64,000 bases of DNA from assembly GCA_902826615.1 (NCBI GenBank), contig CADEFN010000003.1:641133-705132 (forward strand), in the 5' to 3' direction. Positions 5,237-21,383 of this stretch are shown piece after piece. Every line of letters starts with the position of its first letter. The first letter of the stretch is position 1. The DNA comes from an uncultured Gemmatimonadota bacterium (GTDB lineage Bacteria > Gemmatimonadota > Gemmatimonadetes > Gemmatimonadales > Gemmatimonadaceae). Position numbers and translations under genes: made by a program. The notes beneath the pieces are model-generated. The model was not told the DNA's origin. It was given only the letters and a program-made list of their open reading frames with translations, and did not search any database.

Positions 5237-5301
5237 CGAAACCTCGGGGATTGTGCGACTGGAGCGCGCGCGGACGGGCGGCGCTGTGGCACTCGTGACG
5301 C

Positions 5302-6063
5302 CTACGGCTTCACGAGTGCCGTAACCTGAGCTGGCATAGCAAACACCGACGCTGGAGCAGTGTTGAGGACAACGTCCTGAATTGTCATGATCATCGTTTG
5401 TCCGCCGACCGAGATGACAGTTCTCGTGGGCATCAGCACACCACCGAATCGCTTGTAGTCGCCCTGGGTGAACGACGCATTCGCGGTGCCCGCTGGCGAC
5501 TCCTGGGTGAACGTGCCTCCCAGGACAAGTCCAGAGACGGCGGAGAACAAAGTCAAGGACTCGCTGCCGGACTCCTTGGCAATCATTCTCACCTTGAACG
5601 CCCGTTCGCCGGCAAGAATGGTATCCCCAATGATTTCCATGCTTCGGTATCGAGCGGAGCTGTAAAGCCTCGAGCCGTAGAAGTCAGCGCGCTCGATCAT
5701 CACCTTCAACTCCTTGCCCGCCAGCACGCGAGCCCCCTGCGCCGGATTGACTTCCCACGCAACTTCGCCGTTGTACCCATTCTGCATCTCGCCGGCACCC
5801 GGGATGGTTGTGGTCGTTGATACCAGGTTCGGCGCAGCCGCAAACATCGCCATGCGTACGGAGAGCCCCGCCGCAGGCACTTCCATGAGCGCGCTCTGCG
5901 TGAGGGAGGTGAGCTTCATGATCGCTTCTTTGCCGCCAATTGCCGTGACGTATTTGGCAACGACCTCATCGGCCGAGGGCAGCGTTTGTGCACGTAGCGC
6001 GATCGGGCTCAGCCCCGCAAGGGCGAGCATGGCGGCAGTCAGTGAGCGTAGATGGAAGTTCAT
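5302..6063 (-). CDS. Exported LolA-like periplasmic protein
   Basis: I chose the ATG at 6063 because it gives a standard signal peptide (MNFHLRSLTAAMLALAGLSP, cut near LRAQ). The frame extends 22 codons upstream without signal character. The mature part is an all-beta protein of about 230 residues with the outline of the LolA/LolB fold. The N-terminal helix region reads VVAKYVTAIGGKEAIMKL, and it ends with short alternating strands. Proteins of this kind are annotated as outer-membrane lipoprotein-sorting proteins. Lipid carriage here is only an inference. It lies between the XRE regulator and the membrane protein in one operon. Confidence 0.6.
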   Translation of the reverse strand: MNFHLRSLTAAMLALAGLSPIALRAQTLPSADEVVAKYVTAIGGKEAIMKLTSLTQSALMEVPAAGLSVRMAMFAAAPNLVSTTTTIPGAGEMQNGYNGEVAWEVNPAQGARVLAGKELKVMIERADFYGSRLYSSARYRSMEIIGDTILAGERAFKVRMIAKESGSESLTLFSAVSGLVLGGTFTQESPAGTANASFTQGDYKRFGGVLMPTRTVISVGGQTMIMTIQDVVLNTAPASVFAMPAQVTALVKP

Positions 6064-10229: not shown

Positions 10230-11492
10230 TCAGTCGCTATGCTGGTGTCGCGGGGCCAGCGACCAATTCACGTCCGACACGCGTTGATCCGAGAAGATCA
10301 CCGGGAAGAAGTGCCGCTTCAGCGCCTCATGATACTCGGCCACCGAATCGAGGTACCGGAGGTACGACGCCTGATCGGTGCGGGCAAGTGCGTTGAGTCG
10401 CGCGTGGACCGCCGCGGGAGGAAACCAGCGCAGGCGCGATCGACTCCAGGCCTCCCTGCCCTCCATGACCTCCCGATACCGCTGCGCGGACGCTCGCGAC
10501 TGGTCGTCTCCGCGCTGCTGCATCGCGTAGTACCACCCGTTGGAGTACCGATCCGCCGGCACAGGCGCCGAGCGCCACTCCGGATATCGTTGATAGAACG
10601 CCTCCATGACCTCAGCCATGGGCTCATCCCAGGCACCGTGGTAACCCTGCCGCTGTGCGACGGTGAGCTCGAGCGCCTCAGGGAGGGGGAATCGTCGGCC
10701 GGCCAGCACATTCACCAGCGCCGGCCCCAGTGCTGTCGCCACGATCCACACGCCGAGGAGCAGCATGAGATTGAACTCCGACGGACGACGCAGTGCGGCG
10801 ACCAGCCCGGCGAACAGACACCATCCAACCAGGTACAGCGTCAGCACACCAATCATGCTCGCCAGTGTGGTGTCCATCGGAAGACCTAACCACACAGTGG
10901 CGAAGGCGACCACAACCAACAGAGTGATCCAGACCACGGCAGTGCGCAGAGCAAGCCGCACGGCGTAGAGTCGGGCGACCCCTGGCGCCTGCAGCCGTAG
11001 CAGCGGCAGTGTGCCCTGCTCCTCGTCACCTGACCGGAGGTTCCAGGCCAGGGCGATCAGTAACAACGGAGCGAGCACGACGCATACGAAGGCCAGATCG
11101 AACGTCCCAAAAGACGTAAGCAGGGGATTGTCGAGGTCTGCGTCGTACAACTGGCCCTGCAAGGCGTGAATGCGCACCTTGAGGTTGAAGGCATGGACAT
11201 CGCGTTGTCCCAGGGCCAGCGGAGCCCAGGGTGAAGGCGCCCGCGCGGTATGGAAGGCGAGATAGTAGAGCTGGTCACCGGCGACCGCGTTGGGCTGCGG
11301 CCCGAGGATCGCCCGGTGTTCGGCCGCCTGACGAGTCGCTACCTCGGCCAGCACGTCACGCTGCCGCTGAATCACACGGTGGCCGTTCCCGATCGCGAGG
11401 AGTCCGGCCACCAGCAGGAGTGGCACGCCGAGTGAGACCACGCGCTGCCGACGGAGCAGGAGCCATTCGCGCGTGAGCTGGTGCCAGGTCAT
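10230..11492 (-). CDS. ABC-2 type permease, DUF3526-like (second permease of the operon)
   Basis: The 420-residue membrane protein has one transmembrane helix near residues 20-36, a soluble domain to about residue 130, then several helices (about 131-260) and a long charged C-terminal part. This is the DUF3526/ABC-2 pattern, in which two large extracytoplasmic loops sit between helices. Its ATG overlaps the stop of the preceding permease gene (ATGA), so the two are translated together and probably form a heterodimer with the ATPase at 15446-16213. It is the last gene of the minus-strand operon. The transported substrate is unknown. Confidence 0.8.
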   Translation of the reverse strand: MTWHQLTREWLLLRRQRVVSLGVPLLLVAGLLAIGNGHRVIQRQRDVLAEVATRQAAEHRAILGPQPNAVAGDQLYYLAFHTARAPSPWAPLALGQRDVHAFNLKVRIHALQGQLYDADLDNPLLTSFGTFDLAFVCVVLAPLLLIALAWNLRSGDEEQGTLPLLRLQAPGVARLYAVRLALRTAVVWITLLVVVAFATVWLGLPMDTTLASMIGVLTLYLVGWCLFAGLVAALRRPSEFNLMLLLGVWIVATALGPALVNVLAGRRFPLPEALELTVAQRQGYHGAWDEPMAEVMEAFYQRYPEWRSAPVPADRYSNGWYYAMQQRGDDQSRASAQRYREVMEGREAWSRSRLRWFPPAAVHARLNALARTDQASYLRYLDSVAEYHEALKRHFFPVIFSDQRVSDVNWSLAPRHQHSD

Positions 11493-12967
11493 GGGTGGGC
11501 TCGCTGCGGGTGGGTGGTTCGGATCAGGGCCGCCATCACCAGCAGCACCACCAGCAGCAGGACCCCGCCGGCCCGTGCCTGACGAGCCAGCGTCGCGCCT
11601 AACGATGGTTGCTCCCAGGCAAAAGTGGGGAGCGAGGCGAAGAAGTGCTGATCAATACGCTGCCGACTTGGGGCACCGTTGATCACCGCACCATATCGAT
11701 CCTGTGCAGCCGCCACCTCCTCCATGTGGAGTCGGTTGAGCCGCTGAATCAGATCGTACCGGTACGCTTCGGCCTGCCGCTCGAACTCCGCGAGGTGTGC
11801 CGGGTCGGTCCCAGCGGTGGCCATGGAGAGGGAGCGCGTCACCAGAAAGGGACTCACGACACCGAACAGATCGAGGACCAACTGCTGGCGCGCACGAACC
11901 CGATCGAGTGAATCGAGGTGGGCCTGAAATGCCTCGCTGGTGTGCCGTTCCCCTTCCTGCATAACGAGGCCCTGGTAGTTGAACGGCAGCTCGGCCACCG
12001 TCGCCACGCCGTACTTTGCCAGCGTCTCCTGTCGGAGTCGCGCGAAGGCGGGATCGTCCGGGTCATGTGCATCACCCAGCGACCGGACCGTGGCATCCAC
12101 CCGCTCCGCAAACTCGGCGCGCGATGGCAGCGGGAACCAGGCGTTGGCCGCCACCGGTGCGAGGCGCGGCACCACAATCCAGAGCGCGATCCAGGTGCCC
12201 AGGGTGATGGCCAATGCCTCGCGCGAGGTCCGGGAACGCGCCGAGGCCAGCGTGGCGACTGTCGCTACCATGATCCAAAAGATCACGTGCAGCGCGAGCA
12301 ACACGAGGAGCCTGGGCCCCACCGCCGACAACGCCTGTGTACGCGAGACAACCCACGTGGTCGCGATCAGGCCAGAGGCAACGACAAGCGTCACCAGGGT
12401 GCACACGCCAAGAATCTTTCCCATCACCAGGGCACGCCAGCTCACGCCTTGCGCCAGGTGCAGGGCCAGCGTTCCGGCTTCGCGCTCCCGGGTGACTGAC
12501 ACGCCAGCGGTAACCAGCAGGAAGAGCGGCACAAACAACTGCAGGACAGTGGCCGGGTTGAGGTCACCAAACCGTTCCGTGCCGGCTTGCGCCGCCGCAC
12601 TGAAGTTCGCCGTGTTTTGGCGATGGGCCTCGAGGAACATCGACGTGCCGGCGAAGCGCTCCACCCCGCTATCGAAGGCGGAGAGCGGTGCGACCGGCCG
12701 GAACAGGAGATAGCCGTAGTGCGACACCCGGTGCGGGTGACGGTCCGGCTGGGAGGCAAACTGCGAGCCCACGAGTTCCTGGTATCGCTCCCGCTGGGCC
12801 GCTTCTCGCACCTGGCGATCGTGAGAGGTGACCGCGGCCAGGAGGAGCAGCGCCGTCAGGATGGCGCCAAGCAGGAGCGTGCTGCGCGTCCGCCAGGCGT
12901 GACGCAGTTCCTGCTGCGCCACGCGAAGGACCAATGTTGTACCAGAGGCCGTGGATCTGCCCGCCAT
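11489..12967 (-). CDS. ABC-2 type permease, DUF3526-like (first permease of the operon)
   Basis: I chose the ATG at 12967, which has a GAGGT ribosome-binding site six bases upstream. A GTG at 12982 is in frame but has none. The protein has 492 residues. The N-terminus (LVLRVAQQELRHAWRTRSTL) is the cytoplasmic entry helix of this permease family. A first transmembrane helix, a large extracytoplasmic domain (about residues 50-150), a block of five or so helices, a second soluble domain and a last helix near the C-terminus follow. It starts 31 bases after the TonB receptor stop. Its N-terminus resembles the 53-residue remnant at 15275-15436. Confidence 0.8.
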   Translation of the reverse strand: MAGRSTASGTTLVLRVAQQELRHAWRTRSTLLLGAILTALLLLAAVTSHDRQVREAAQRERYQELVGSQFASQPDRHPHRVSHYGYLLFRPVAPLSAFDSGVERFAGTSMFLEAHRQNTANFSAAAQAGTERFGDLNPATVLQLFVPLFLLVTAGVSVTREREAGTLALHLAQGVSWRALVMGKILGVCTLVTLVVASGLIATTWVVSRTQALSAVGPRLLVLLALHVIFWIMVATVATLASARSRTSREALAITLGTWIALWIVVPRLAPVAANAWFPLPSRAEFAERVDATVRSLGDAHDPDDPAFARLRQETLAKYGVATVAELPFNYQGLVMQEGERHTSEAFQAHLDSLDRVRARQQLVLDLFGVVSPFLVTRSLSMATAGTDPAHLAEFERQAEAYRYDLIQRLNRLHMEEVAAAQDRYGAVINGAPSRQRIDQHFFASLPTFAWEQPSLGATLARQARAGGVLLLVVLLVMAALIRTTHPQRAHP

Positions 12968-12998
12968 CACACGACCTCGCACTGCGCGGAACGCGGCA

Positions 12999-15242
12999 TC
13001 AGCGCTGCAGCGTCACGTTGAGCAGCACACCGCGACCACTCGCCGGCGAGTGGAGAGTCTGCGCGCCATCGAACCAGGCGTACTCGAAGTATCGGTCGAA
13101 GACATTCTGCATCGCCAGTCCCACGGTGGCCACGCGCCAACGCCACGAGACATCAACGTTGGTCGAGAAGTAGCTGCCAAACTTCGCCGTGGAGTTGGCG
13201 GTGTTCAGGAAGTAGTCGTCCTGCCCGAAGGTCCATGCGGAGATGGCGACGCCCGAGCGATGACTCCAGTCGATGCCCAACTTGGTCGTCCAGTCCGGAA
13301 CATGGTCGAGACGCTTGCCCTTGAGCTGCGGTTGCGTCAGGCCCGGTTCCACGAGGGTGGCCCGCTGCGAGGTGAAAGTGCCCCAGGCGCTCACCCCACC
13401 GCCAAGGGCAAATGTGCCCTCGAGGTCGACGCCTTTGCGCTCGGTTTCTCCGACGTTTTCTGAATCTCCGCTGTTGTCGAACTTGAGACGGACTTCGTCC
13501 GAGGCGTTCTGTTGCCACACACCAGCCCGCAGCGTGATCCGTGCGGTCGGCGCCGCAGACACCCCAACCTCCCATCCGTCGTTTGTTGACGGGCGCAGGG
13601 GCGCCGTACCAAACGCGCCAGTGCCAGTGCCGATCTGGAAGGAACGCCCGTAGTTGCCGTACACCGAGAAGCCAGCGAGCGGAGTAAGGATGGCTCCCAG
13701 CTTGGGCTGCCATACCGTCCCGTAGTCGAGAATCGGGGAGGTCACACGCGTGGCCTTGTTGGTGAACTCTCCGTCAAAACCGTCGACACGCATACCGGCA
13801 TGCAGACGGAGTGGTGAGACCGGCGCGAGATCGATCTGCGCAAAGCCTCCTCGATTTGAGAAGGTGAAGTCGTAGTCGCGGAGTGTCGCGGCCCGCACAC
13901 GATCGGCCGTGCGAAAGCGCTGTTGCAGGTTGTCCTGAGTCTGCCAATCGCCGCCAAGCGAAACGACCACGTCCTGCGATCGGAGCGCGGCGGGGCGCCA
14001 GGTGAACTGCGACACCAATCCATACTGGTTCTCGTCCTCTCGCCGTTCCTGTTGCGCACCGGCGGCGGTGAACTTGACGAAACGAATGCGGTTGAAAGCC
14101 TGCCCATACGCACGAACAGTCAACGCGGTGGTTGCCGAGGGGGTGATCTCGGAGTGCAGCGACAGCTGCTGGGAGGTGATGTCACCGCCGTCCGCCGCTG
14201 AAAACGCCGGCGATGCCGTCGGCGTGCTGCGCGACTCGGCGAGGGTGAGGTAACCCGGCGCGTCAGTCTCCAGGTCGTGCACCCGTCCGATCATCCCGAT
14301 CGAGAAGCGATCCGAGGGCGTGCTGTAAAACCACTTGCCCGACGCCGTGTACTTTGTGAGCGCCGAGTTGTCGCGGTACCCGTCACTGGTGCGATAGGAG
14401 CCCGCCAGGGTCTGGGAATAGCCGCGCCCCGCAGTCGCCGCGACCAGCTGGCCTTCGGTCGTACCAAAGGAGCCCGTCGTGAGGCGGGCGAGCATGTTAT
14501 TGCCGCCGCGCTTGGTGGTGACATTCACGTTGCCCGCGAGGTTGAACAGGCCGTACCGCGCATCACTCGTTCCCCGCACCACCTCCATGCGATCGATCTC
14601 CAGGGCCGGGATGGCATTGATCTCACCGAAGCCCGCGTTGGTGTGCATCGGGATGCCGTCGACCATGATGCGCGCGTGTGCGATTTCTCCTTCGGTGTTG
14701 AAGCCACGCATGGCGATGTCGCCCGAGACGATCCCCTGGTTGTAGTCGGCGTGATAGACACCGGGAATCTTGCGCAGCAGTTCCTGGGCGAAGTCGACGT
14801 TTTCACGAGCGACCTGCTCGCCGGTCATGACACTCACCGCGCTGAGCATATCGGCGGCGCCGAGATGACGCGTGGAGCCTGCGTCGCCCCGTCCGATGAC
14901 CACCACCGGGGGCTGGACCGTCCGTGTGCGCAAGACAATGTCTCCAGCTGCCGTTGTTGCCGACGTGATGTCGAGGGAACGGGAGATGGTCCGAAGCCCG
15001 GTTGCGCTGGCGGCGAGTGTGTGCCGTCCGCGCCCCAGAGCGTTCAGTGCAAAACGGCCATCCGCACCACTGGTGACACGTACTTCGCGACCGTCGGTGT
15101 CAATGAGGGTAACCATGGCCCCGCTCAGCGGAGTCGACACGGAGTCGAGAATGCGTCCTTCCACGCGCCAGGGTGCCGTGGATTGCGCGGCGGCAAGGGC
15201 GGGTGAGAGGAACAAGGCGAGCACTAGACAGAAGCGACGCAT
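12999..15242 (-). CDS. TonB-dependent outer-membrane receptor
   Basis: The ATG at 15242 gives a signal peptide (MRRFCLVLALFLSPALAAAQ) and a 747-residue protein. Residues 25-110 form a carboxypeptidase-like regulatory (CarboxypepD_reg) domain. A plug domain follows (about 115-240, with IPGVYHADYNQG, MVDGIPMHTNAGFG and VRGTSDARYG), then a 22-strand type barrel ending in the aromatic-rich NVFDRYFEYAWF region. The sequence is of the siderophore-receptor type rather than SusC. It imports a substrate across the outer membrane using the proton motive force. Its place inside an operon with ABC-2 permeases and a sensor kinase suggests that the operon handles one imported or exported compound. Confidence 0.9.
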   Translation of the reverse strand: MRRFCLVLALFLSPALAAAQSTAPWRVEGRILDSVSTPLSGAMVTLIDTDGREVRVTSGADGRFALNALGRGRHTLAASATGLRTISRSLDITSATTAAGDIVLRTRTVQPPVVVIGRGDAGSTRHLGAADMLSAVSVMTGEQVARENVDFAQELLRKIPGVYHADYNQGIVSGDIAMRGFNTEGEIAHARIMVDGIPMHTNAGFGEINAIPALEIDRMEVVRGTSDARYGLFNLAGNVNVTTKRGGNNMLARLTTGSFGTTEGQLVAATAGRGYSQTLAGSYRTSDGYRDNSALTKYTASGKWFYSTPSDRFSIGMIGRVHDLETDAPGYLTLAESRSTPTASPAFSAADGGDITSQQLSLHSEITPSATTALTVRAYGQAFNRIRFVKFTAAGAQQERREDENQYGLVSQFTWRPAALRSQDVVVSLGGDWQTQDNLQQRFRTADRVRAATLRDYDFTFSNRGGFAQIDLAPVSPLRLHAGMRVDGFDGEFTNKATRVTSPILDYGTVWQPKLGAILTPLAGFSVYGNYGRSFQIGTGTGAFGTAPLRPSTNDGWEVGVSAAPTARITLRAGVWQQNASDEVRLKFDNSGDSENVGETERKGVDLEGTFALGGGVSAWGTFTSQRATLVEPGLTQPQLKGKRLDHVPDWTTKLGIDWSHRSGVAISAWTFGQDDYFLNTANSTAKFGSYFSTNVDVSWRWRVATVGLAMQNVFDRYFEYAWFDGAQTLHSPASGRGVLLNVTLQR

Positions 15243-15274: not shown

Positions 15275-15436
15275 CTACGAGCCATCGCGAGCACCCCAGT
15301 TCCAATGAACGGTCGATTTCTTCGGTCCGATGGCTGCGACGGACCTCACCAGCGTCAGGACAATGGCCGCCGACCAGCGGAAACGCCCATCGCGCAGAGT
15401 ATCTGTGAACTCCTTGGATGCGATCCGAAACAGCAT
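15275..15436 (-). pseudogene. N-terminal remnant of a third DUF3526-like permease
   Basis: A 53-codon reading frame begins with ATG at 15436, nine bases after the ATPase stop, with a strong GAGGAGG ribosome-binding site. Residues 1-29 (MLFRIASKEFTDTLRDGRFR then WSAAIVLTL) match the conserved start of ABC-2/DUF3526 permeases: cytoplasmic amphipathic helix, then the first transmembrane segment. From about residue 30 the sequence changes to RSVAAIGPKK and ends in TAG after residue 53, with no further permease sequence. The TonB receptor gene follows after 32 bases. This looks like a permease gene whose body was lost by deletion or replaced when the receptor gene arrived. A functional short peptide cannot be excluded. 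Confidence 0.7.
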
Positions 15437-15445
15437 ACGCCCTCC

Positions 15446-16213
15446 TCAGTCGCGCATGTGGTCGAGATACAAACGTTCGAGATCCGCGTGTCCGATGTCG
15501 GCCGTGCTGAGTGTTTGCACCAGCGTGCCGTGTTTCATGATGCCAACCCGCGTTCCCGTTTCCTTGGCACGGAACAAGTCGTGGGTGGCCATGAGAATGG
15601 CCGCTCCCTGTCCCCGCAACATGTCGAGGAGCTGCGAGAATTCGTTGGACGCCTTGGGATCAAGTCCGGAGGTCGGTTCGTCCAGCAGGAGCGCCTGCGC
15701 GCGTTTGGCGAGCGCAATCGCAATGCCGACCTTCTGCCGCATGCCTTTGGAGTAGTCGCCAACCCGCTTGGTGGCCGCGTCGGGTTGAAGGCCCGCGCGC
15801 GACAGGTACTCGAGCAACTCCTCGCGCTCATGGCGGCGTGACGTTGCCAGCGAGGCGAAATAGTCCAGGTTTTCCAGCCCCGTGAGGTTCTTGTACAGCA
15901 TGACCTGCTCGGGGATATAGGCAACGTGCTGTTTGGTCTCGAGTGGCTGTTTGGTGACGTCGAGACCGGCGATATGCGCCGATCCCGTGGTCGGCTCCAC
16001 GAAATTCAGAAAGAGATTGATGGTCGTGGTCTTCCCTGCGCCGTTGGCTCCGAGCAGACAGAAGACCTCGCCAGGATGGATGGCGAGATCGAGGGCATTC
16101 AGGGCGGTGAAGTTGCCATACCGTTTGGTCAGGGCTCGGGCTTCGAGCACCGCGCCGCGTGCACTTCCGTTCGCGCCGGCTTGAGTCTCTGGAGTCATGG
16201 CGACGGAGGTCAT
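15446..16213 (-). CDS. ABC transporter ATP-binding protein
   Basis: I chose the ATG at 16213 (MTSVAMTPETQ) because a GAGGA site lies upstream. An in-frame ATG at 16198 is an alternative. The 255-residue protein has a Walker A (LLGANGAGKTTT), Q-loop region, signature motif (DYSKGMRQKVG, a variant of LSGGQ), Walker B (ALLLDEPTSGLD) and H-loop (MATHDL). This is the CcmA/NosF-like subclass that energises ABC-2 permeases. It probably pairs with the two permeases at 10230-12967. The gene follows the LytTR regulator gene after 115 bases on the same strand. Confidence 0.92.
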   Translation of the reverse strand: MTSVAMTPETQAGANGSARGAVLEARALTKRYGNFTALNALDLAIHPGEVFCLLGANGAGKTTTINLFLNFVEPTTGSAHIAGLDVTKQPLETKQHVAYIPEQVMLYKNLTGLENLDYFASLATSRRHEREELLEYLSRAGLQPDAATKRVGDYSKGMRQKVGIAIALAKRAQALLLDEPTSGLDPKASNEFSQLLDMLRGQGAAILMATHDLFRAKETGTRVGIMKHGTLVQTLSTADIGHADLERLYLDHMRD

Positions 16214-16328
16214 TGGACCGTTCCTCAGGGTGGTTTGGAGACGACCCGAGGACGATAGGATGAAACAGCCGTCGCAGCACAACGTGACCCCACGAACGGT
16301 CGAAACCGGCCAACGAATGGCTCGACGA

Positions 16329-17162
16329 TCAGAGCCTGAGGAGTTCCTCACGCAGCACGCGCGCGCGCAAACGGCTCACCGGGAGCTGGATGTTGTTCCG
16401 CAGACTGACCACGTAGGTGCCACCGGGCATCGGGCTGATCCGATGAATCAGCTCCACGTTGGCAATGGTTCCTCGTGAGAGTCGCACGAACTTGGCCGGA
16501 TCGAGCCGCGCCTCGAGGTTCTTCAGCCGATAAGTGATCGTGAAGCGCTCACCGTTGATGAGCGTGAGGTGCAACAACTCGCCATCCGCCACAATGGCCG
16601 CGATCTGATCCACCGGAATGATGATGATGTCGTCCCGCTTCCGAACGGGAATTCGCCGCAGATACCGCGTCGGAGCGCCGAGGTCCACTTCCTCTGCCAC
16701 GGCCTTGAGCCGTGCGACTTCTGCTGGCTTGTAGTCAGCCTGTTCCAGTCGCTCCAGCGCCCGATTGAGGGTCAGCCGCAGCCGCACCGGATCCACCGGC
16801 TTGAGCAGGTAGTCGATGGCCGACATCTCGAATGCCTGGACGGCGTACTCATCATAGGCCGTGACAAACGCCACGAGCGGCAAGGCATCCTTCCGCACCA
16901 TCCGCACCACACCCAGGCCGTCGAGCTCCGGCATCTGGAGATCCAGCAGGGCGAGGTCGGGACGCACTTGCTCGATCACCTCCACTGCCTCGGTGCCGGT
17001 CGACGCTTCGCCCACAATCTCCACATCCGGGTTGGCTGCAAGCATGCTGGCCAAAAACGCGCGGGCTGGCCGCTCGTCGTCAGCAATGACCACGCGCAAC
17101 CGGTGCACCAGCTCTGTGGGTCGGTCAGGCCGCTTTTCAGTCCGGGATTGGGGAGGCATCAT
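16329..17162 (-). CDS. LytTR family response regulator
   Basis: The 277-residue protein has an N-terminal receiver domain (about 22-140) with the acidic pair in IADDE, the phosphoacceptor Asp74 in LALLDLQMPE and the conserved Lys in YLLKPVDP. A C-terminal LytTR DNA-binding domain follows (about 175-277, with FVRLSRGTIANVELI and SRLRARVLREELLRL). Such proteins bind pairs of direct repeats about two helical turns apart. It is 12 bases after the sensor kinase gene, so the two are a cognate pair. The 21-base phased ACCAG repeats at 19145-19196 are its likely target. Confidence 0.93.
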   Translation of the reverse strand: MMPPQSRTEKRPDRPTELVHRLRVVIADDERPARAFLASMLAANPDVEIVGEASTGTEAVEVIEQVRPDLALLDLQMPELDGLGVVRMVRKDALPLVAFVTAYDEYAVQAFEMSAIDYLLKPVDPVRLRLTLNRALERLEQADYKPAEVARLKAVAEEVDLGAPTRYLRRIPVRKRDDIIIIPVDQIAAIVADGELLHLTLINGERFTITYRLKNLEARLDPAKFVRLSRGTIANVELIHRISPMPGGTYVVSLRNNIQLPVSRLRARVLREELLRL

Positions 17163-17174
17163 GGCGGTGGAAGG

Positions 17175-19103
17175 TCAGCCCGCGCTGCGCAGGGCTGGTG
17201 AAACCTGATCGTGTATGTCGGCGTCGACGGGAAGGACGAGGGTCACCGTGGTCCCGCGTCCGGGAGCCCCGTCCAATTCGAGTCGCGCTCGATCACCAAA
17301 GAGGCGAAGCAGGCGTTGTTCGATGTTGCGCAGCCCCACCCCACTACCGGACGGATGGGTGCGGGCCGAGTCCGCCAGCCCTGCCCCGGTGTCCTGCACC
17401 ACCAGGGTCAGCACGGCCCCGGCGGTTCCGCGGGTCGCGCTCGCCACGACACTGACGTGTCCTCCGCGACGCAGTGGCGAGATACCATGTTTGATGGCAT
17501 TCTCCACCAGCGGCTGAAGCAGGAGGGGCGGTACACGCACATTGCGCAGTGATTCAGGAACATCGAAGCGCACCTGCAGCCGTTCCTGAAATCGCTCGCG
17601 CTCGATCGCGAGGTAGGCGTCGACGATGTCGAGCTCCTCACCGAGAGAGACCGACTCACCCGCCGGTCCGCGCAACACAGCGCGCAGCAGCTCCGTGAGT
17701 CGGAACAAGGTGCCGAGCGCGCGCTCCGGTGCGCTCTGCATGAGGTAGCCGAGCGTGGTCAGCGCGTTGAAGAGGAAATGCGGGTTGAGTTGTGCCCGGA
17801 GCGCCCGCAGCTCAGACTCGGTGGCCAGCTGCAGGATCTCCCGCTCACGCAGATCGCGCGCGAAGCGCTCACGCGTCACCCGAATGACATCGATGCGCCG
17901 GGCCAGCAGGGTGGCGATCCCCTCGAGGAACGCCACCTCATCAGACAGAATGCGCTGCCCCGCCGGGAGTGGACCCACATCGAGCACGGGAAGTGGACCG
18001 TCACTGGTCGGTACGTCCACGCGGGCGACGTTGCGTCCCGGCGACGAGATGGTGACACGGGGATGCGGAGGCGGCGTCTCATTGACCAGACGCCAACTAA
18101 CTTGAGCCGATACACCGAGGGCCGCCGCCACGATTGGCACGGCGCCGCCTAACGCTTCCTCCGGCGTCTCCGCCCGGGCGACGACAAAGGTGACATCGCT
18201 CCGGAAGGTGGCGCGATCACCGCGACGCAACACCACACGGTCTACCACATAACTGGACAACCGTCGAATAGCAGGATAGGACACGGCGGTGGCGACCCAC
18301 AACATGATGTGCCCCGCGGTCACGTACAGCGACTCCTCGTACCCCGCACGCATGACGACCATCAGTGGCTCCGCCACGGTCACGTGGAGGAGCACGGCCA
18401 GCGCCACCAGGAGCACCAGGGCTATGGCACGCCGCAAGAACAGGTCGGCAAACGCGAACCGGTAGTCCTGATAGAGAATGACCAGCACCAGGGGGATCGA
18501 CGCGTGATGTCCGAGCAGGCCCGTGAGCCAGCCATCGGGCGCCGTGACGTCGTGCCCGAGGTGCATGGCGGTCGCGGCAAAACTGGCCAGTGCCACGGCC
18601 GTCACTCCCCATCGTCCTCCAGCGCGCGTCGCTTGCGCCGCGACCACTAGGGTGACAAGCAGCAGGTAGCCGACCGTGAGAACGAAAAGTGCCGATGCTG
18701 ATGGCGTGGTCGCGGTGCCGTCGCCCAGCGCAAAGATTGCCGCCGCTGCCGCACTCAATGTGTAGGCGAGTGGCACAGGCAAACGCCTCCACCCCGTGGA
18801 CTCGGGGGGCTGCGCCGAATGCACAATTACCGCAGGGAGAAAGCCGAGCGCCGCGAAAGCGACGGCAACCAGGCCGCCGGCAGGCTCGGCGATCGCAAAA
18901 TCCCGGAGACCGTAGATCACGAGGGCTCCGAGGTTCCACACAAGCCCCAGGACGGCCGCCAGAAGAGGAAGCGAGTTCGCTGGCCGACCGACCCTGGTTC
19001 CTGAAAAATCCCGCGCGGTCATGGTCACGAGCATCGCATACAACACGACGCCAGTGGAAAACCCGCTGAGATGAATGAGTGAAGTGAGCTGCGAACTGGC
19101 CAC
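17175..19103 (-). CDS. LytS-type membrane sensor histidine kinase
   Basis: The protein has 642 residues and a GTG start at 19103. The first about 280 residues carry around eight transmembrane helices. A GAF-like region follows (about 300-410) and then the His_kinase/HATPase pair of the LytS/YehU family. The phosphoacceptor is His442 in LNPHFLFNAL, the N-box reads PLVENAIKHG, and the G-box region is GSGVGLRNIEQRL. It phosphorylates the adjacent LytTR regulator. It is the first gene of the long minus-strand operon that contains the ABC transporter and TonB receptor, so the signal sensed is probably the transported compound or the damage it causes. Confidence 0.92.
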   Translation of the reverse strand: MASSQLTSLIHLSGFSTGVVLYAMLVTMTARDFSGTRVGRPANSLPLLAAVLGLVWNLGALVIYGLRDFAIAEPAGGLVAVAFAALGFLPAVIVHSAQPPESTGWRRLPVPLAYTLSAAAAAIFALGDGTATTPSASALFVLTVGYLLLVTLVVAAQATRAGGRWGVTAVALASFAATAMHLGHDVTAPDGWLTGLLGHHASIPLVLVILYQDYRFAFADLFLRRAIALVLLVALAVLLHVTVAEPLMVVMRAGYEESLYVTAGHIMLWVATAVSYPAIRRLSSYVVDRVVLRRGDRATFRSDVTFVVARAETPEEALGGAVPIVAAALGVSAQVSWRLVNETPPPHPRVTISSPGRNVARVDVPTSDGPLPVLDVGPLPAGQRILSDEVAFLEGIATLLARRIDVIRVTRERFARDLREREILQLATESELRALRAQLNPHFLFNALTTLGYLMQSAPERALGTLFRLTELLRAVLRGPAGESVSLGEELDIVDAYLAIERERFQERLQVRFDVPESLRNVRVPPLLLQPLVENAIKHGISPLRRGGHVSVVASATRGTAGAVLTLVVQDTGAGLADSARTHPSGSGVGLRNIEQRLLRLFGDRARLELDGAPGRGTTVTLVLPVDADIHDQVSPALRSAG

Positions 19104-19144
19104 GAGGGGACCGTGAGTGTGATGCCACGATGATTCATGATCCT

Positions 19145-19196
19145 ACCAGAAGCCATCACGGGGCCACCAGTGGTCGCTCTGCCTCAACCAGTGGTC
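19145..19196. promoter_or_regulatory. Three 21-bp phased ACCAG repeats, candidate LytTR operator
   Basis: ACCAGAAGCC (19145), ACCAGTGGTC (19166) and ACCAGTGGTC (19187) begin exactly 21 bases apart, two turns of B-DNA. The last two are identical over ten bases and each contains the odd palindrome ACCAGTGGT. They lie in the 223-base divergent region between the sensor kinase gene and the alpha/beta hydrolase gene. Pairs of direct repeats with about this period are the usual LytTR target. No further copy continues the series cleanly. The assignment is an inference. Confidence 0.6.
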
Positions 19197-19326
19197 TCAG
19201 CACCCCATGGACGGCAGGCCGGCGGGACCGAACGGTTCATTGGGGCTCGGCAACCACCGATCCATGCTGAACGGCCGCTGGTAGGAAGTCAGGTGCGCCC
19301 GGTACCCGGCTCAGCACCTTCAGACA

Positions 19327-20103
19327 ATGAAGCGGCGACACTTTCTGGCCGCTCTGGCAGCTGGGGCCGGGGGGATTCTCGGCGCACCGGCCGCCGGAGC
19401 GCAGGATCAAATCACCCGGCTCAGGTCCAGAATCAAGCCGCCCCAGTCCCTCCTTACCCCCGGACTCCAACCTCTTGGCTTGGCGTCAGGTCGAGATGGC
19501 GTGATGTACGTTCCGGCGTCGTTGCCGGCGGACGCTCCAAAGCCACTCCTGCTCATGCTCCATCACGCCGGAAGCGGCGGGAAGAAGTGGTTTGGACCCT
19601 TCCGGGACCGCGCGGAGGCCCTCGGCCTGATCGTGGTCGCACCTGATGCCCGCGGACGCACCTGGGAGCTCGATCGGCAGCGCGTGGTGCGTGATTTTGC
19701 CTTCATCGATGGTGCGCTCGCACGTGCCATCAGCAGCACACACGTTGACCCCGCCCGGGTCGGCATCGGAGGTTTTGGCGACGGAGCATCGTATGCCCTG
19801 ACCCTGGGAATACCGAACGGCGATCTGTTCACCCACGTCCTCGCCTTCTCTCCCAGCTTTTATGCGGAGACCGACCGACGCGGGGATCCTGCAGTCTTCC
19901 TCGCGCACGGAGTGGCAGACACCGTCTTTCCGATCGTCGGCACCAGTCGAGGACTGGCTCAGGTGCTGCGGGAACAGGAGCGCCGCGTGGAGTACGTGGA
20001 GTTTGAAGGCGGCCATGAACTGCCGCCTGAAATTCTCGACCGCGCGCTCGCTCAGCTCGTGAGCCCTCCGGGCAGGACCGCACCGACGTCGTCTCTCCGA
20101 TGA
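19327..20103 (+). CDS. Tat-exported alpha/beta hydrolase with Ser-to-Gly change at the nucleophile
   Basis: The 258-residue protein has a twin-arginine signal ([16 protein letters not shown]) cut near GAQDQ. It has the outline of the phospholipase/carboxylesterase or PHB-depolymerase-like group: an oxyanion region [12 protein letters not shown], Asp198 in [10 protein letters not shown] and His230 in EGGHELP. The nucleophile elbow, which in this family reads GFSDGAS, here is GFGDGAS (codon GGC at 19777-19779). The base change AGC to GGC would account for it. As written, the enzyme lacks its nucleophile. It shares an overlap with the COG0523 GTPase gene, so the two may be co-expressed. Confidence 0.82.
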
Positions 20104-21383
20104 GTAGTCCCGCTTTTCCTCCAGACACCCTGACCATGAACAAACTGCCTGTCACTGTTCTCTCCGGCTTCCTCGGTGCCGGCAAGACCACCCTGCTCAA
20201 CCACGTGCTCGGCAACCGGGAAGGACTCAAGGTGGCCGTCATCGTCAACGACATGAGTGAGGTCAACATCGATGCCCAACTCGTCAAAGGTGATGCTTCG
20301 TTGAGTCGCGTAGACGAGCGGCTGGTGGAAATGACGAATGGCTGCATCTGCTGCACACTGCGCGAGGACCTGCTGATCGAAGTCGCCAACCTCGCGCGCG
20401 AGGGGCGCTTTGATTACCTCCTGATCGAGTCGACAGGAATCGGCGAGCCCATGCCAGTGGCAGCCACCTTCCATTTCACCGACGAAGCGGGTCAGGCCCT
20501 CAGTGATGTCGCCCGCCTCGACACCATGGTGTCGGTGGTCGACGCTTCGGCCTTCCTCAAGGATTTCAACTCCGCGCAGGATCTGCGTGATCGCAGCCTC
20601 GAAGTGGGCGAGGAAGACGACCGCACCATCGGTGACCTGCTCATCGACCAGGTGGAGTTTGCTGATGTCCTCGTGCTCAACAAATGCGACCTGATGAGTG
20701 CACAACACGTCGCCGAACTCGAAGCGCTCCTGCATCGTCTGAATCCGACGGCGCATATTCTTCGAGCCGAGCGGGGTCGTGTTCCCCTCAGCGAGATCGT
20801 CAACACGGGGCGGTTTGATCTGGAGCGCGCATCATCCATGGCCGGCTGGGCCAGGGAGCTGGCCGGCGACCATGTGCCCGAGACAGAAGAGTACGGCATT
20901 TCCAGCTTTGTCTACCGGGCGCGCCGCCCTTTCCATCCCGAACGACTCCTCACCGAAATCCAGCGGGGCTTTCCCGGATGTGTGCGGTCCAAGGGGTGGC
21001 TCTGGATGGCCACACGCCACGATCTGGTGGGGGCATGGTCGATTGCCGGCCAATCGCTGACGCTCACCCCAGCTGGCTTCTGGGAAGTTGTGGTTCGGGC
21101 GGATGCGGGCGAGGAGACTGAGCATGAGCACACGCATCTGGACGATGTCGCGCGCCAGCTCCCCGAACATTGGGACCCGGTCTGGGGCGATCGGCGGCAG
21201 GAGCTCGTGTTCATCGGCGTGGGCATGGATCGAGAAGCACTCTCGGCGCGGCTCGATAGCGCCCTGCTCGCCGCGGAGGAGATGAGCGCCGGTCCCGCCG
21301 TGTGGAGTTCCTTTGCTGATCCGTTTCCCCCCTGGCCAGTGATGGAGGTGGGTGATGAAGAGGAAGAGGTGCCGGAAATCTGA
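20100..21383 (+). CDS. COG0523 (CobW/P47K) family GTPase, probable metallochaperone
   Basis: The 427-residue protein has the G3E GTPase motifs: Walker [10 protein letters not shown], the metal-binding GCICC (Cys82, 84, 85), ESTGIGEP and the base-recognition NKCD. A CobW C-terminal domain covers about residue 265 to the end. COG0523 proteins load or insert metals such as zinc or cobalt. Which metal cannot be read here. There is no zinc-responsive operator that I recognise and no cobalamin gene nearby. The ATG at 20100 overlaps the preceding stop (ATGA). An internal ATG at 20136 is also plausible, since it is where homology begins. Confidence 0.88.

Follow-up and report, generated by a model that had tools for sequence, protein, structure and literature searches.

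The window analysed here, the whole 64,000-nucleotide stretch of DNA, contains a two-component operon in which a sensor histidine kinase gene is followed by the gene for a LytTR response regulator, with genes for an ABC transporter, a TonB-dependent receptor and two DUF3526 proteins further along the same strand (Table 1). Upstream of the kinase, a 223-bp intergenic region separates it from a divergent pair of hydrolase and CobW genes. The original prediction had placed a set of repeats in this region beside a LytTR two-component operon, and the domain matches agree, since LytTR regulator and PF06580 histidine kinase genes adjoin them. The best NCBIfam match of the regulator is BtsR (NF008677), but at 171.2 bits it scores below the cut-off of 246 and the protein was therefore not assigned to BtsR. 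When the regulator was searched against PDB sequences, the best stretches fell in the receiver part, among the 60 of 238 matches listed.

Table 1. Genes, predicted regulator boxes and candidate promoter elements of the locus (bits, score under the motif learned from related loci where sites are concerned).
Feature	Position	Strand	Remarks
Second DUF3526 protein, presumed permease	10230..11492	-	Domain match
ABC-2 permease with DUF3526	11489..12982	-	Domain match
TonB-dependent receptor	12999..15242	-	Domain match; start 15242 chosen by us
Weak site CCATCGGACC-11-CCGTTCATTG	15303-15333		Upstream of TonB receptor gene; one strong box, CCGTTCATTG, and a poor partner
ABC transporter ATPase	15446..16213	-	Domain match; start 16213 chosen by us
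Strongest predicted regulator site, CCATTCGTTG-11-CCGTTCGTGG	16290..16320	-	23.4 bits; rank 1 of the 64-kb window
Response regulator, receiver and LytTR (PF04397)	16329..17162	-	Domain match
Sensor histidine kinase	17175..19103	-	PF06580 and HATPase_c
Candidate -10 of kinase promoter, CATCGT	19127..19132	-	41 bp from start of box 1; 3 of 6 letters as in TATAAT
Third ACCAG	19145..19149	+	10-mer at -3.1 bits; in presumed -35/spacer region
Predicted box 1, kinase-proximal, CCACTGGTGG	19164..19173	-	3.1 bits; one ten-base copy of the original prediction
Predicted box 2, CCACTGGTTG	19185..19194	-	6.6 bits; 21 bp from box 1; the other ten-base copy
Predicted box 3, CCGTCCATGG	19205..19214	-	7.8 bits; 20 bp from box 2; new
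Predicted box 4, CCGTTCGGTC	19226..19235	-	5.8 bits; 21 bp from box 3; new
Weak three-box chain facing hydrolase, CGGTTCATTG, CCACCGATCC, CCGCTGGTAG	19233..19284	+	Starts at 19233, 19254 and 19275
Alpha/beta hydrolase (Abhydrolase_2)	19327..20103	+	Domain match
CobW-type GTPase, ZigA-like	20100..21383	+	581.8 bits, just below cut-off of 600

In the intergenic region, ACCAG occurs on the forward strand at 19145, 19166 and 19187, with start-to-start distances of 21 bp, and the ten bases at 19166-19175 and 19187-19196 are identical (ACCAGTGGTC). No other ACCAG triple with 21-bp steps was found when both strands of the window were scanned (109 copies on the forward and 95 on the reverse strand). 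An exact 10-bp repeat at offset 21 appeared in none of 5000 dinucleotide shuffles of the intergenic region, and one at any offset from 15 to 30 in 23 of 5000. Positions and shuffles thus bear out the claim of three copies exactly 21 bp apart, two of them identical over ten bases; because the first copy matches the other two over five bases only, the strong repeat is a pair. The arrangement ACCAGTGGT-N11..13-ACCAGTGGT has a single occurrence in the 5.9-Mb genome. The repeat unit, ACCA-G-TGGT, is a near-palindrome, and ACCACTGGT-12-ACCACTGGT has the format of a LytTR site, namely direct repeats of 9-11 nt with a gap of 11-13 nt.

Related kinases were sought in 179 genomes of the family (145 with a match) and in named genomes, where 80 loci were kept. 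The 27 loci with a nearly full-length kinase match, 14 from the family (the window's own included) and 13 named, were used with 300 bp upstream of each; left out were named loci matching the kinase core only and L031-L035, where the match is partial or broken, in one case at a contig end with the N-terminal part intact. The motif was trained on 25 upstream regions, excluding that of the window (L017) and that of L052, a near-duplicate of L049. Repeats of seven of eight bases at offset 21 are present in 16 of 26 upstream regions, and no other offset between 10 and 44 exceeds nine. An expectation-maximization (EM) search of the 25 regions for recurring 9-bp motifs with constant spacing gave a log-likelihood of 115 at 21 bp; with the other spacings as baseline, the best of 12 other distances reached 67, at 25 bp. 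The 10-bp run returned the consensus CRAYGAAYGG, which is CCRTTCRTYG on the opposite strand, again with a period of 21 bp. Motif pairs of at least 18 bits (18-30 bits, mostly in training data) are found in 15 of the 26 upstream regions of relatives and are absent from the other 11; the best pair is oriented to the kinase in 10 of these 15 and the opposite way in 5. Beyond the stretches used for training, the motif puts one of the three best sites of the locus where the regulator gene ends in 12 of 23 loci, window included, for which a rough estimate of chance is 1 to 2; all 12 share one orientation, and the remaining 11 have no top-three site there. Seven regulators that were aligned are 52-79% identical to that of the window.

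In the closest relative (L018/G151), whose kinase is 65% identical and which is one of the 11 without a pair of 18 bits, the stretch directly before the kinase gene lacks a site; one of 25.4 bits precedes the TonB receptor gene, and one of 19.4 bits stands in the gap between the regulator and ABC genes. In this relative (L132, 6066-8843), the TonB receptor gene and a gene for a 153-aa lipoprotein-like protein head the kinase operon, instead of lying downstream. Judged by these sequence comparisons, spacing and placement are conserved across the relatives and the exact word is not. The expectation that orthologous loci would carry the repeats therefore held for the 21-bp spacing and failed for the word itself, and the earlier reading of the 21-bp period as that of a LytTR site is in line with the direct repeats of equal period beside related kinase operons.

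Scored with this motif on the reverse strand, the intergenic region contains a predicted four-box chain with steps of 21, 20 and 21 bp, which at 23.3 bits ranks first of 127,962 positions when steps of 20-22 bp are allowed, a tolerance chosen after the 20-bp step was known; none of 2000 shuffles matched it. The best three-box chain with steps of 20-22 bp (20.3 bits) likewise ranks first and was equalled in none of 2000 shuffles. When every step must be exactly 21 bp, in the forward-strand reading, three boxes (6.6 bits, rank 11) and four boxes (1.5 bits, rank 10) are unremarkable, because one step is 20 bp. Taken as pairs, 19205-19235 scores 13.6 bits (rank 6 in 64 kb) and the ACCAGTGG pair 9.7 bits (rank 16), against 18-30 bits in 15 of 26 upstream regions of relatives; a pair as good as the latter arose within 19104-19204 in 53 of 2000 shuffles. 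On motif score, both ACCAGTGG copies probably act as low-strength boxes for the regulator. The third ACCAG was rejected as a box on its score of -3.1 bits and is probably not one; read as part of an extended -10, TGGTAGGAT, it is off the distance seen in the family. The notion of three copies as the functional unit was thus not upheld, with one of them lying in the presumed -35/spacer region and two further boxes (19205-19214 and 19226-19235) lengthening the array in the opposite direction.

The relatives also follow a promoter spacing rule, which is directly visible in their sequences. Among 33 merged sites of at least 18 bits from 23 loci, 20 have a -10-like TAnnnT at one of two distances from the proximal box, 40-42 bp in 13 of them and 61-62 bp in 7; the other 13 sites have it at neither, examples being TATACT at 20 bp in L049 and TATCCT at 45 bp in L136. 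From flanking offsets, where TAnnnT occurs 6 times in 2355, 0.42 such cases are expected against the 20 seen, at offsets picked after the peak was visible. The position 21 bp past the last strong box has a mean of -0.5 bits in the 61-62 class, against -11.2 in the 40-42 class (Mann-Whitney p 0.00025) and -11.7 in the class without a -10. This box-like position indicates that a third, degraded box beside the promoter recurs among related loci. In the window, CATCGT lies at 41 bp and is a weak -10; TAGGAT (19140-19145) is nearer the consensus, but its distance of 28 bp is off that of the family.

We consider it fairly probable, from motif and spacing, that the repeats belong, as two weak boxes, to an array of four at a phase of roughly 21 bp that the LytTR regulator is predicted to bind. 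The repeats, their fit to the relatives' motif and their orientation toward the kinase are observed directly; that all four boxes face the kinase, like the best pair in 10 of the 15 upstream regions, speaks for an array. Against it count the weakness of the boxes (3.1-7.8 bits), the unremarkable strict-step chain and the poor CATCGT, as do the five oppositely oriented relatives, the 11 of 26 without a pair and the lack of a direct kinase site in the closest relative. Self-regulation of the kinase operon through the array is likely. In the proposed mechanism, the kinase would phosphorylate the LytTR regulator encoded by the second gene of the operon, and the phosphorylated protein would occupy adjacent boxes along the same side of the helix, presumably cooperatively. 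We infer activation rather than repression: the bound regulator would bring RNA polymerase to a promoter, with a -10 that may lie near 19127-19132, and so raise expression of the kinase-regulator operon. The strong pair at 16290-16320 is situated in the gap between the regulator and ABC ATPase genes, with TATCGT (16252-16257) 42 bp downstream; it may be the principal output site, from which the ABC-transporter genes are driven.

The regulator could instead use only the upstream pair 19205-19235, the ACCAGTGG repeats being decayed or idle. The higher score of that pair (13.6 against 9.7 bits) and the merely mild rarity of ACCAGTGG pairs under the motif (53 of 2000 shuffles) favour this, but decay would hardly leave ten identical bases exactly 21 bp apart, and CATCGT lies 82 bp from box 3, farther than at any of the 20 rule-conforming sites among the 33 from related loci; we regard it as rather improbable. 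Still less likely, in our judgement, is that ACCAGTGGT is the near-palindromic operator of another regulator, with two sites two turns apart that perhaps act on the hydrolase-CobW unit. ACCA-G-TGGT does read nearly alike from either strand, and the two copies share all ten bases although each deviates from the family motif. However, the ACCAGTGGT pair has no second instance in the genome, and near 14 other LytTR genes (13 stretches) the 21-bp repeats outside long ORFs include just one look-alike, CCCCCGTGG/CCCCAGTGG, located 4.4 kb from its LytTR gene. In the same 13 stretches, with a crude ORF mask, no convincing ACCAGTGG pair was found, a weak negative. One of them, L186, has a 21-bp repeat of the CACCGCTCT/CACTGCTCT type at 5280-5310, about 0.5 kb from another LytTR gene, and these are perhaps boxes of that neighbouring regulator.

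A functionless chance repeat would agree with a first copy of five bases only and with the ACCAGTGG-pair matches in the family, none of which is on the contig of a related kinase locus (no listed match on such contigs of 14 family genomes, L018-L031). The shuffles, of which none in 5000 reproduced the repeat and none in 2000 the chain with 20-22-bp steps, speak against it and make it very unlikely. As a regulon marker, the exact ACCAGTGG-pair word was discarded: with up to one mismatch it is matched in 73 of 178 family genomes, and a reversed-pattern control gives the same order (2 against 7 in the window's own genome, compared row-wise). Matches that recur, ACCACTGGGCGTACGC...AACCAGTGG among them, resemble conserved coding sequence.

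The original prediction also suggested that the repeats could control both the kinase operon and the divergent hydrolase gene. The kinase half of this is likely, whereas the hydrolase side has only a weak opposite-strand chain and no good -10. At 16.9 bits, this chain ranks second of 127,962 positions with fixed 21-bp steps and fifth with steps of 20-22 bp. There is no TAnnnT at the family distances from it; the sole candidate is CACCTT at 40, which as a -10 would make the hydrolase message leaderless. A match to the CobW protein is found in 5 of 15 genomes searched. In two of them (G024 and G141) a CobW 63% identical to that of the window is encoded about 0.7 kb after the DUF3526 genes of this same cluster (L194, 3928-5103; L196, 10123-11298), G110 has a close match on another contig and G013 a weak match elsewhere. 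The linkage in these two relatives counts in favour of joint control and hints at a metal-related role of the cluster. The best-scoring hydrolase relative is 46% identical, with partial matches up to 50%, and comparison of the 25 loci with related kinases revealed no hydrolase orthologue. That the regulator controls the hydrolase-CobW unit is weakly suggested, and joint control of this unit and the kinase operon is possible, though on the doubtful side. At an acidobacterial locus (L054, 3857-3950), two opposed box pairs lie between the ABC genes and the kinase, each facing its own gene, which is a cleaner version of divergent control.

The site type and the period are those of LytTR regulators, as is the promoter distance found among the relatives, and the switch is of an ordinary type, its site pattern recurring beside related operons in other bacteria. 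LytTR-type sites are direct repeats of 9-11 nt spaced 11-13 nt apart (PMC4847170), and the sites of Streptococcus mutans HdrR/BrsR and other LRS are 9-bp repeats mostly 12 bp apart, a period of 21 bp, many of them beginning ACCACT (ACCACTTAT) (PMC6193735). These systems, which consist of a LytTR regulator and an inhibitory membrane protein and are separate from two-component systems, strongly favour a gap of 10 bp from the repeat to the -35 (PMC6193735); with a 17-bp spacer this amounts arithmetically to 42 bp to the -10, the distance found here at related loci. The window shares the 21-bp period and, with ACCACTGGT, resembles the entries that begin ACCACT, but its repeats end in GGT rather than TAT. 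It is not an LRS, since its regulator has a receiver domain and is adjoined by a histidine kinase. To our knowledge, LRS regulators lack a receiver domain.

The BtsR motif is ACC[GA]CT[CT]A-N13. The accessible part of PMC7567609 contains no description of the BtsR site. BtsS/BtsR of Escherichia coli pairs a LytS-type kinase with a LytTR regulator, as in the window (PMC5552118), but the regulator here scores 171 against the cut-off of 246 and no pyruvate-transporter gene is among the annotated neighbours. The site of E. coli YpdB consists of a high- and a low-affinity copy of a 10-bp direct repeat, GGCATTTCAT, with a distance of 21 bp in the oligonucleotide as printed; the phosphomimetic form binds them sequentially and cooperatively (PMC4847170). 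The part of that study available describes a single target promoter with two sites, whereas the window has a longer weak array and a separate strong pair (PMC4847170).

Among the matches listed in searches of the literature on LytTR regulators and on Gemmatimonadetes two-component regulons, there was no paper on the operon of the window, and none on Gemmatimonas with LytTR or on DUF3526. In one joint and more speculative reading, which we judge less likely than not, the window would be a case of an unrecorded LytTR regulon that one bacterial family shares with Acidobacteriota and Nitrospirales among the named genomes. Its promoters would obey a strict rule, the boxes recurring at 21-bp intervals and the -10 lying at about 41 or 62 bp. 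At part of the loci this regulon would have as targets a DUF3526 ABC transporter, a TonB receptor and a ZigA-like CobW, with a possible role in metal homeostasis; the weak kinase array would set a high threshold for self-activation, and the strong pair would fire the transporter first. A repeat spotted by eye would in this way become a testable regulon, in which a single motif and a single spacing rule go with predicted target promoters across several phyla. With a strong predicted site at the transporter next to weak ones at the kinase, the locus would lend itself to testing how output and feedback of LytTR systems are ordered by the strength of their sites.
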